Below the pieces are notes generated by a model. That model ran no database searches and was not told the origin of the DNA. It was given only the letters and a program-made list of their open reading frames with translations. Shown here in pieces: positions 29,027 to 31,693 of a DNA stretch of 56,635 bases (positions are counted from its first letter, which is position 1; each line of letters opens with the position of its first letter). The stretch comes from Akkermansia muciniphila. Lineage in GTDB: Bacteria; Verrucomicrobiota; Verrucomicrobiia; Verrucomicrobiales; DEV007. A program made the position numbers and the translations under genes. The stretch spans positions 1 to 56,635 of the forward strand of contig CAMCXS010000034.1 of NCBI GenBank assembly GCA_945883495.1, in the 5' to 3' direction.

Positions 29027-29536
29027 TCAATCAAGCGCACTCTTGATCAGATCTTCAAACGCGCCGCGAGCTTCGTCCACGGCGGCTTGAGGTCCGGTGA
29101 ACCTGACATAGACCGCGCCTTGCTCACTCGGAAGGAACGCAGCCAACATGCGATAATTCGGCCGGGGCGTTTTCGTTCCGCCAAAAGGAGGTCCGTCTAA
29201 ATACGTGCCGGTGAGCACGACCATAATAGCGCCCTTGGCCAGCTCAATCTTCTCCTCGGCGGCGGGGCCGCCCTCGAACATCCCCTTCCAACGATCAATG
29301 TTCCCCTGGGCATCTCCGCCCTGGCCAGGGCCAAAGGTGAAGAAAATCGCGACCGGATCGATATCGCCCGCCGCATCAAACTTCAACTCGGCGGCCCGCA
29401 TGGGACTCGACGGCTGCTGGGCGATCCACGGTTGTTTGGCGTCGAACGTGAATTCGCCGATCTTGAGGTCGTCGGCAAAAACCGGGGAGGCAAAGGCAAG
29501 CAGCGCGAAGGCAGCAGCGGCAAAGTGGGTTTTCAT
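29027..29536 (-). CDS. Exported hypothetical protein
   Basis: The protein has 169 residues with a clear signal peptide (MKTHFAAAAFALLAFASPVFA). The mature part begins DDLKIGEFTFDAKQPWI and contains FFTFGPGQGGDAQGNIDRW and RMLAAFLPSEQGAVYVRFTGP. I know similar uncharacterised proteins from related genomes but no function. It is convergent with the SOUL gene, six bases away. Confidence 0.75.
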   Translation of the reverse strand: MKTHFAAAAFALLAFASPVFADDLKIGEFTFDAKQPWIAQQPSSPMRAAELKFDAAGDIDPVAIFFTFGPGQGGDAQGNIDRWKGMFEGGPAAEEKIELAKGAIMVVLTGTYLDGPPFGGTKTPRPNYRMLAAFLPSEQGAVYVRFTGPQAAVDEARGAFEDLIKSALD

Positions 29537-29657
29537 GTCTTCTTAGTAGGGGCATTTGTGAGACTGTTCAAACGGAAACCATCTTAAAAAATGCGAAAAA
29601 AACACCACCAAATAAACAAATCACCTCACAGGTGCCGCTTCATTGCGGAAGTCACTG

Positions 29658-30134
29658 ATGAATCCGTCCGATCGTTCACCTCGCGAATCCCGAGAACTCG
29701 AAGAGTTCGCCTCGAAACTCTCTCGACTTCGTCCGGCGGAGTTGGACGCAACCCTCGCTCATCGTTTGGAGATGGCGCTGCACCGGGCGGAAGAGGAGAG
29801 GGACACTCCTTTCAACATCATCCACTATCCATTCGTGCGCTGGACGGCTGCCGCGGCGGCTTTGGTCCTAGCCATGGGCCTGGCCTTCGAATCGACACTG
29901 AAACAGTCCGCCGGTCCCGCGGTCGCCGTTCAGGAATCCAAGCCTGTGACCGGACGCGAAGCACGTCCGGTGTATCAAGTCGTCAACGGACGCATGATTC
30001 AGTCTTCCAATCAGCAAGTCATGGAACGCGCCTCCTACAAAGGGATCCGCGTCATTGATGGGAAAGCGTATCGTCATTATCAGCACGGAAGCAGTGCCTA
30101 CTGGGAGCCAGCTCTTGAGAGTTCCAACGACTAA
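29658..30134 (+). CDS. Single-pass membrane protein of unknown function
   Basis: The protein has about 158 residues from MNPSDRSP (an ATG five codons upstream is possible). A charged cytosolic N-terminal half (about 1-60, rich in Glu and Arg) is followed by one membrane helix (RWTAAAAALVLAMGLAF) and an external part with YQVVNGRMIQSSNQQV. This topology resembles anti-sigma factors, but no sigma-factor gene is adjacent, so I leave it unnamed. Confidence 0.6.
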   Translation: MNPSDRSPRESRELEEFASKLSRLRPAELDATLAHRLEMALHRAEEERDTPFNIIHYPFVRWTAAAAALVLAMGLAFESTLKQSAGPAVAVQESKPVTGREARPVYQVVNGRMIQSSNQQVMERASYKGIRVIDGKAYRHYQHGSSAYWEPALESSND

Positions 30135-30142
30135 TCGATTTC

Positions 30143-30202
30143 ATGAAATTTCTTCTCCTAACGTCAACCTGCAGTTCTGCTTCGGCAGCTAATCCGGTGT
30201 AA
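30143..30202 (+). CDS. Possible 19-residue peptide
   Basis: An ATG at 30143 opens a frame encoding a Lys then hydrophobic Phe-Leu-Leu-Leu stretch and a Ser/Ala-rich end, stopping with TAA exactly where repeat copy 1 begins. It could be a leader peptide. There is no clear ribosome-binding site, and a chance frame of this size is easily found. Confidence 0.2.
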   Translation: MKFLLLTSTCSSASAANPV

Positions 30203-30281
30203 GTTGGGTCTTCAAAGTGTTGTAATTGTGCGCGTGGCAAACGTGCCGTGTTCCGGGTGGGACACGGCACGTTTCATTTTG
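30196..30281 (+). repeat. Structured repeat, copy 1
   Basis: The element has the order AGTTGGGT, CTTCAA, GTGTTG, AATTGTGCGCGTGGC, then a perfect 13-base-pair hairpin (30239-30251 with 30262-30274), then TTTCATTTTG. Copy 2 lies 475 bases downstream. The loop contains GGGTG. The hairpin followed by a short T-rich stretch could terminate transcription. Function unknown. Confidence 0.75.
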
Positions 30282-30455
30282 GGCCGGAGCGATGCCCTCC
30301 CCCCCACTGGCGGGGCTTTTCGGATTTTTCGTTCCCTGAGAGATTTTCCTCTTTCGCAAACACAAAAAGGAGGGGCGTCTACGCTATATAAGTGAGGCCG
30401 CAATTGAATCGCGAAACCCTCCGAAAATTCCCCAACTCTGCTACATCTTTCGACA

Positions 30456-30677
30456 ATGGCCCATCTTCCTCTTCACGGTCTGCAAACTAAGGCGCAACGC
30501 CTGCACACGCTGGCGCACGAAGTCAGTGTCAGCGGTGCCCACACCGCGTGGACCTATCGTTTGTCTGAGTCCATCCAGCCGCTGCTGCAACATCGAAGCA
30601 GCCGCTTCCGTTACTTTCCCGAACAGCCCGACTCCTCCGCGCTAGACGCTCGTCCCGCGCGGCCCGGTCAGGTGTGA
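30456..30677 (+). CDS. Small open frame between the two repeats
   Basis: A 73-residue basic product beginning MAHLPLHGLQTKAQRLHTLA, with no signal peptide and no recognised family. An AT-rich stretch with TATATAAG lies about 70 bases upstream and could be a promoter -10 region; no ribosome-binding site is obvious. Its TGA stop sits at the first bases of repeat copy 2, just as the short frame before copy 1 stops in that copy. It may be a real small gene or a chance frame. Confidence 0.35.
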   Translation: MAHLPLHGLQTKAQRLHTLAHEVSVSGAHTAWTYRLSESIQPLLQHRSSRFRYFPEQPDSSALDARPARPGQV

Positions 30678-30755
30678 GTTGGGTTCTTCAAGAGTGTTGA
30701 ATTGTGCGCGTGGCTCGCGGCCCGTGTCTGGGTGGACACGGGCCGCTCCATTTTG
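30671..30755 (+). repeat. Structured repeat, copy 2
   Basis: It has the same layout as copy 1: AGTTGGGT, CTTCAA, GTGTTG, AATTGTGCGCGTGGC, then a perfect 12-base-pair hairpin (30717-30728 with 30735-30746) with a TGGGTG loop, then CCATTTTG. The outer part of the stem differs from copy 1 at several positions, yet the pairing is complete in both. It ends about 47 bases before the transporter start, so it might act as a leader of that gene. Confidence 0.75.
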
Positions 30756-30802
30756 TAGCGAAGACGTCCGGACTCCGCTACGCTCCAGCTTCCGTCCGTC
30801 AG

Positions 30803-31693
30803 ATGCCCCCGCCTTCCGCTCCAGCTCCGCTTGCCGATCCACAGCTCGCGCGCCGGGGGGTGGCAGTGATGCTTTTTTCCGTGGCGGCGTTCACGGTAAA
30901 CACCCTGCTCCTCAAACATCTTGGCTCCACCGGCCAGGTATCGACTCTGGCGGCTCTCCTTTTTCGCGCTGTGTCGGGCATTGTCATCGTGATGCTGTTC
31001 TTTCGCGGCAGGAGCCCCGCCAGGGTCCGGCCCGTTTTTACCGAACGCCGCCTGATCTCACGAGGTTTCACCGGCCTGCTCGGAACGGCGTGCTACTACT
31101 GGACGGTCCCTCAGCTCGGAGCTGGGAAAGCCACGCTGATTTCCACGACCTACGTCGTCTTCGCTGCACTGATCGCCGCCTGGATTCTCCGGGAACCACT
31201 CACGAAGGCTCGCTTGGGCTGGATGCTGCTTGCCTTTGCCGGGGTCGCGATGCTCTCGGGCGTGAAAAGCTCCACGTTCCTGGGACTTCCTGAATTCGTC
31301 GCGGTGATCGGCGCGATCACCGCCGCAGTGACTGTGGTGTTGATTCGCCAACTCAGCGCGGTCCACTCGATCGGCACCATCTACTTGGCCCAGTGCGTCT
31401 GGATTCTCTTTCCGATTCTGCCGTTCACCGTGCCACAACTAGATGACCTCTCGCCATACGCCCTCGCCATCCTCACCGTGGCCGCCATCGCCGCCAGTTA
31501 CGGCCAACTGGCGATGAACGAGGGCTACCGCTGCCTTGCCGTTGCGACCGGAGCATCGATCCAGATGATCTGGCCCGTGCTCACCTCGATCGGCGGAATT
31601 TTGCTTTTTGATGAAAGTTTTGGCCTCTGGCAAATCGCCGGGGCTGCAATCATCCTGCTGGCGAACTGGATGATCGCGGTGCGTCGCGCATGA
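30803..31693 (+). CDS. EamA/DMT-family transporter
   Basis: The protein has about 296 residues from MPPPSAPAPL, which is the first reasonable start after repeat copy 2. Ten hydrophobic segments are arranged as two EamA repeats, the first beginning AVMLFSVAAFTVNTLLL, the second FVAVIGAITAAVTVVLIRQL. Members export amino acids or other metabolites, or import nucleotide sugars; the substrate cannot be predicted here. Confidence 0.85.
   Translation: MPPPSAPAPLADPQLARRGVAVMLFSVAAFTVNTLLLKHLGSTGQVSTLAALLFRAVSGIVIVMLFFRGRSPARVRPVFTERRLISRGFTGLLGTACYYWTVPQLGAGKATLISTTYVVFAALIAAWILREPLTKARLGWMLLAFAGVAMLSGVKSSTFLGLPEFVAVIGAITAAVTVVLIRQLSAVHSIGTIYLAQCVWILFPILPFTVPQLDDLSPYALAILTVAAIAASYGQLAMNEGYRCLAVATGASIQMIWPVLTSIGGILLFDESFGLWQIAGAAIILLANWMIAVRRA

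Follow-up and report, generated by a model that had tools for sequence, protein, structure and literature searches.

A structured 3' module and a shared upstream motif mark three putative transcription units in two species of a Verrucomicrobial genus

Two copies of a structured element were found in a 56,635-nucleotide stretch of contig CAMCXS010000034.1 (hereafter, the window), and a third copy was identified elsewhere in the genome, on a different contig. Each copy lies at the end of a putative transcription unit, and all three units have counterparts in a second, congeneric species. The shared motif ACAAA-N15-CGCT, with its two halves at a fixed spacing, stands upstream of six of six units (three per genome). 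The copies themselves, covariation in their hairpins, a 12-base linker without variation, and the common upstream motif suggest a small, previously undescribed gene circuit whose common tail would be either a regulatory RNA or a tag for stability. Our leading explanation, to which we give a little under even chances, is that the three units form a regulon under a shared promoter and that sibling regulatory RNA modules, borne on their transcripts, act in trans.

In the following, G000 denotes the window's own genome (6.46 Mb) and G002 denotes the second species, the MAG Verrucomicrobia bacterium REEB427. The two module copies in the window are named c1 and c2, and the copy on the other G000 contig is named c3. 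The window copies and their parts are as follows.

30200-30281, + strand: c1 3' module, scoring 91.1 bits with model R1, itself built from c1
30227-30238, + strand: c1 invariant linker TGTGCGCGTGGC, the same in six of six copies
30239-30274, + strand: c1 hairpin with the loop GGGT(G), from the fold, the alignment, and the covariation test
30275-30281, + strand: c1 short U-rich tail CATTTTG, weak as a terminator and not called by the terminator scan
30675-30755, + strand: c2 3' module, starting at the stop codon of a 73-aa ORF and scoring 100.3 bits with R1, itself built from c2
30687-30701, + strand: possible c2 mini-hairpin UUCAA-GAGUG-UUGAA, seen by eye in the sequence
30703-30714, + strand: c2 invariant linker TGTGCGCGTGGC, from the six-sequence alignment
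30717-30746, + strand: c2 hairpin, terminator-like and followed by TCCATTTTGT, from the fold, covariation, and the terminator scan

The original prediction described an element present in two copies. Both copies were recovered, with all of the strings quoted for them and both hairpins, and the number was revised to three per genome. The 13-base core TTGTGCGCGTGGC has exactly three exact matches in the 6.46-Mb G000 genome, corresponding to c1, c2, and c3 (G000:C25:39750-39762), and inspection by eye showed that the module is absent at all ten one-mismatch sites of this core. Additionally, c1, c2, and c3 each have an orthologue in G002, giving six sequences from two species. The prediction was to be given up if no further copies existed in related genomes, and it is sustained by the exact core of c3 and the three G002 orthologues.

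On the plus strand, none of 200 shuffles folded as well as c1 (z -3.45) or c2 (z -4.18). The minus strands fold well too (z -3.08 for c1 and -5.07 for c2), and folding alone therefore does not tell the strand. In the six-sequence alignment, stem pairing was kept in 97.6% of cells, and changes on both sides were found in 7 of 14 stem pairs (12 cells); neither value was reached in any of 500 column shuffles. As a control, slid registers paired in only 31-44% of cells. Further pair types in the stem were not above shuffles (222 of 500), the one exception in the covariation test that had been proposed as a check. Compensation was present between paralogues too, and the c1 orthologues provide the cleaner case: their 36-base stem-loops have six differences, all located in three compensated pairs (C-G to U-A, U-A to A-U, and U-A to C-G), with zero uncompensated. 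These compensatory stem changes across homologues support the assignment of the module to the conserved structured RNAs, and the doubly changed pairs and the three c1 orthologue pairs bear out the earlier claim that compensatory change here marks a selected structure. The claim of a shared GGGTG loop on stems of different sequence held for the pairing; however, the CCGT/ACGG portion of the stem is fixed, as is most of the loop, and only part of the stem varies. The loop retains GGGTG, or a shifted form of it, throughout the alignment.

Compensation in a terminator stem would be insufficient by itself as proof of a functional RNA; the argument for one rests on the invariant linker and the 5' motif. 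Two points go beyond the original prediction, namely that the hairpin forms the terminator-like end of a longer unit and that a motif is present upstream. One alternative is that ordinary terminators of three units duplicated from one ancestor were kept by descent or gene conversion, with no further role. The hairpins are terminator-like, compensation is expected in any terminator, and both unit ends are common to all, as they would be after duplication. Nevertheless, the 12-base linker lies outside the stem and is invariant, whereas a terminator can work without conservation in either linker or loop. In addition, the c3 module differs between G000 and G002 at 0 of 83 columns next to diverged neighbours, and the copy-specific stems have been kept between the species. 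We consider this explanation rather unlikely.

Strong matches to the module were limited to G000 and G002, both by blastn in 57 genomes, including the window's own, and with R1 in the 74 genomes of the family. Outside these two genomes, R1 gave three weak matches (20-23 bits) among the 74 and found no module in G001, the genome of a third species in this genus (81% complete). Across 386 genomes of the order, a second model, R2, exceeded 80 bits in G000 and G002 only, with nothing else above 34 bits. There were 18 further genomes with R2 matches of 22-34 bits (E up to 0.01); those inspected were mostly ordinary-terminator-like, and matches in this range were not relied on because E-values do not model terminators. 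The C10 match (26 bits) was rejected, having the look of an ordinary terminator on a contig without the exact ACAAA-N15-CGCT site. A pattern scan of public contigs, which may leave out records of the window's own genome, returned 45 stretches, and the module was recognized by eye only at three sites on two REEB427 contigs.

Rfam 15 gave 0 matches at the gathering cut-off in the whole window, in line with the original observation, which could not match the element to a named riboswitch or RNA family. A relaxed scan of 30050-30850 gave seven matches, every one far under its cut-off, including microRNA models of up to 19.5 bits, and relaxed scans of six loci returned sub-threshold matches only. 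One of the seven was the bacterial sRNA BTnc201, which covered the c1 module at 18.0 bits versus a cut-off of 105. We also found no description of the element, or of a similar regulatory RNA in this group, among the top-ranked open-licence literature on Verrucomicrobia or Akkermansia sRNAs and on Verrucomicrobia structured RNAs.

A repeated hairpin near ORF ends could also indicate a mobile repeat (MITE- or REP-like), an integron attC site, or another DNA element, and GTTGGGT in c1 and c2 resembles the consensus of an integron core site. Such an origin seems extremely improbable: the three copies stand at orthologous places in two species, GTTGGGT is absent from c3 and from the c1 and c2 orthologues in G002, and, by eye, the six-row alignment contains no conserved second core site of the kind expected of attC.

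The motif upstream of the units was found in the window at two places.

29616-29639, + strand: shared motif ACAAA-N15-CGCT of unit 1, candidate promoter, outside predicted genes
30362-30385, + strand: shared motif ACAAA-N15-CGCT of unit 2, outside predicted genes

It was first seen as ACACAAA, 15 bases, and CGCT in an alignment of the regions upstream of c2 and c3, and was then found before the c1 unit in both genomes, which serves as an independent test. About 0.001 chance matches in G000 and 0.0005 in G002 are expected in three 100-base upstream stretches, and three were observed in each. Within the window, the matches at 29616 and 30362 compare with a shuffle expectation of 0.40, and at least two matches anywhere arose in 11 of 100 shuffled sequences. 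Genome-wide, the motif occurs 45 times in G000 (51 for the reversed-pattern control), 16 times in G002 (33), and 25 times in G001 (27); these counts are below the controls and thus show no overall enrichment.

The location of the motif sites was compared with one gene finder, trained on the window and run alike on every site (42 other sites in G000, 13 other sites in G002, and the six unit sites). Predicted genes contained 38 of the 42 other G000 sites, all 13 of the other G002 sites, and none of the six unit sites. Motif sites outside predicted genes are unit starts in three of seven cases in G000 and three of three in G002. The motif is not exclusive to the units in G000, because four other sites there (L224, L226, L256, and L258) lie outside predicted genes. 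One of them (L226:1609-1632, G000:C7:43408) precedes an ammonium transporter gene by about 125 bases, with no module match there. A claim of exclusivity based on open frames was discarded: all 55 other sites lie in frames of at least 522 nt, but the test is unfair to the unit sites, five of which lie in frames of 381-1191 nt by the same measure and the sixth, at G000 c2, in one of 189 nt.

A promoter scan of G000 detected no sigma70-like promoter in window 29500-30900 or in L001:1000-1700. The spacing of the motif resembles the one between the -35 and -10 elements of ECF-type promoters. In unit 1, the spacer of the motif holds an inverted repeat, CACCT-CAC-AGGTG (window 29622-29634), which might be an operator and was also seen on the minus strand in the promoter scan.

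The three unit bodies are mutually unrelated: unit 1 encodes a 158-aa protein, unit 2 a 73-aa orphan, and unit 3 has an apparently non-coding body of about 300 nt.

29658-30134, + strand: unit 1 ORF, 158 aa, with one hydrophobic stretch, weakly anti-sigma-like; codon-position differences from G002 of 33/24/90
30456-30677, + strand: unit 2 ORF, a 73-aa orphan protein with 69% identity to G002; codon-position differences of 19/4/34
L001:1146-1473: body of the c3 unit, with a frame open in both species

The 158-aa protein matched an anti-sigma model (NCBIfam NF052375) at 22 bits versus a cut-off of 100 and had no Pfam match. The 73-aa protein had no Pfam or NCBIfam match above cut-off and was found in 2 of the 74 family genomes; the only other match was weak and stop-broken, in G030. 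A simple gene finder called the 158-aa ORF and not the 73-aa ORF. Judging from their codon-position differences, both look like real proteins. A stop triplet (TAA, TAG, or TGA) occupies one alignment position before (T)CTTCA in six of six copies (window 30200-30202 and 30675-30677, L001:1474-1476, and the G002 orthologues), and only that of c2 directly adjoins a supported ORF. A stop-codon coupling, in which every module follows an ORF, was considered and dropped: only the c2 ORF is under coding selection between G000 and G002, the differences being 18/20/22 in the c3 frame and 12/8/6 in a 19-codon ORF at c1.

In G000, unit 3 is composed of the motif, the apparently non-coding stretch, and c3, followed by a convergent MYG1-family gene, and the MYG1 gene is likewise there in G002. 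In G000, the c3 unit is preceded by a SpoU-family methyltransferase gene (L001:397-1119); the G002 sequence immediately before c3 resembles, by eye, the ORF preceding this gene in G000, and gene content seems to differ. Between the two species, 5 of 55 positions differ from the motif to the c3 ATG and 61 of 276 in the c3 body, and third codon positions of neighbouring genes differ by 0.59 in MYG1 and 0.49 in EamA. The c3 frame differences are spread evenly by codon position, far below the third positions of the neighbours. This pattern of sequence constraint without protein constraint makes the c3 body look like a constrained non-coding RNA. A structured RNA was considered for the body and is unproven, with 1 of 77 pairs compensated and 99 of 100 column shuffles reaching at least that. 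The fold z-score was -0.32 for the body without the module and -2.15 for the whole c3 unit, and the two-sequence consensus energy of the body was below all 100 column shuffles. At E up to 0.001 in 386 genomes, the body matched G002 and a 33-base stretch in G290, and no others.

The hairpin is present in all six copies, with tails of about four T except in G002 c2. A simple terminator scan called c2 with the full stem and c3 only with a partial stem, and did not call c1. Termination at the module hairpins is plausible from these features, though the U tracts are short. The gene that follows c3 is convergent, and the module there is thus a 3' end. This arrangement bears on whether the module could be an attenuator or riboswitch for the downstream gene (the 73-aa ORF after c1, or an EamA transporter after c2). 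Both c1 and c2 are upstream of same-strand genes, and attenuators are built in this way, with conserved sequence leading into a terminator-like hairpin. However, c3 is followed by the convergent MYG1-family gene in both species, a separate motif for unit 2 lies between c1 and the 73-aa ORF, and inspection revealed no alternative pairing common to the copies. An attenuator is therefore improbable in our estimation.

We propose that the three transcription units, each with its motif, body, and module in that order, constitute a small regulon started from a common motif that is not sigma70-like, perhaps an ECF-type promoter. Unit 1 would join the motif to the 158-aa ORF and c1, unit 2 the motif to the 73-aa ORF and c2, and unit 3 the motif to the apparently non-coding stretch and c3. 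The 3' module would consist of a short 5' segment, (U)UCUUCA..GUGUUG, the invariant and probably single-stranded linker UGUGCGCGUGGC, a GC-rich hairpin capped by a GGGUG loop, and a tail that is short and rich in U. The hairpin and tail would stop transcription and protect the 3' end. As several similar sequences in one genome, each with a conserved segment and a 3' hairpin, the modules have the appearance of a sibling RNA family. They may be sibling regulatory RNAs, either 3'-end-derived or sRNA-like, that would be released as short RNAs and build up in parallel while the regulator is active. Their trans action, by way of the linker or the loop, would be on shared targets or on a single RNA-binding protein common to them.

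A tag acting only in cis would fit the data almost as well as RNAs acting in trans. In that case, the module would be a 3' tag made up of a terminator and, in the linker, a protein-binding site; it would determine how stable the three transcripts are or how they are processed, and no RNA would act elsewhere. The module is carried by two units with supported ORFs and by one that is apparently non-coding, with unrelated bodies, and a search for trans targets among ten one-mismatch sites to 13 linker bases yielded no convincing one; both results agree with a tag. Nothing speaks directly against it, the conserved loop and linker being equally suited to cis and trans action. We regard the tag as the less probable of these two but as a serious alternative. 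A broader reading covers a regulon marked at both ends, in which one regulator and one motif would drive three unrelated transcripts with the same 3' module and thereby give them a common fate or trans activity; we advance it tentatively, as a possibility somewhat below our leading explanation.

A possible distant relative of the module is an sRNA-like gene of about 105-110 nt in five genomes of another genus, g19 (L158, L159, L160, L161, and L162; about 1498-1607). It is convergent with folP in the four neighbourhoods inspected (folP is named for L112), and has a sigma70-like promoter (scanned for L162 and seen by eye in the others). The gene starts with the invariant 5' end GTATTCTTCATTTCATGT; next come a hairpin that is variable among the genomes, the segment GTGTCTGAA, which is again invariant, and a second hairpin whose loop is of the CGGGTG type; the three genes scanned (in L112, L113, and L115) had no Rfam match. 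It shares with the module TTCTTCA on the 5' side, GTGT.TGAA, a stem with a CGGGTG-type loop, and a CATTTT-type tail, but it stands alone, has a sigma70-like promoter, and contains an extra hairpin. When the g19 and module sets were aligned, 97.1% of stem cells paired with 25 double changes, in an alignment made around the stem. The likeness of the g19 sequence to the module linker was not beyond chance: for c2 and c3, 80-516 of 2000 shuffles reached the observed scores, and for the two c1 sequences 597-1726 of 2000 did so. Model R3 was built with g19 sequences, so its scores for them follow from how it was made. The g19 pattern had a sixth match, L157 in G221, which was left out because it lacks the terminal hairpin. 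Another g19 locus (L178:1501-1559, G258:C110) is sRNA-like, with a promoter and a hairpin followed by TTTCATTTT, and scored 30.5 bits with R3.

Among the described systems compared, the ccaF1-CcsR operon of Rhodobacter appears to have the closest layout. In the text available from PMC10253847, CcsR1-4 with CcaF1 (CIN1 loci), an example of sibling sRNAs cut from the 3' portions of small-ORF mRNAs, comprise an RpoHI/RpoHII promoter and a gene for a 71 aa protein, after which come four RNAs similar to one another and, at the end, a Rho-independent terminator. As far as that text describes the operon, both systems have an alternative-sigma-type start (here a candidate promoter), a small protein gene, similar RNAs (here putative), and a terminator-like end; four RNAs lie on one transcript there, whereas here there are three separate units with one module each, one of them apparently non-coding. 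The 73-aa protein also has no DUF1127 match. The module may be likened to mRNA 3'-end-derived sRNAs, as outlined in the available part of PMC9438474, in that c2 starts at a stop codon and would use an mRNA 3' end; here, however, one module closes three unrelated bodies. MasB (BTnc201, Rfam RF04177) is presented in the available text of PMC10994844 as a Bacteroides sRNA of roughly 100 nt. In the model alignment it has a similar 5' part, GU-rich linker, and terminator hairpin, but the module, at its score far under the gathering cut-off, is no member of this family and comes from a different phylum.

In both species, the units that carry the RNA module are also the three that carry the upstream motif, which makes the proposed regulon directly testable where RNA can be sequenced. 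If the module acts in trans, the units would represent a sibling-sRNA circuit in this phylum, where, to our knowledge, few such circuits are known. If it is a tag in cis, one 3' end would serve a whole regulon. Should the regulon prove to be marked at both ends, these units would represent a new Verrucomicrobial riboregulator family coupling promoter identity to 3'-end identity.
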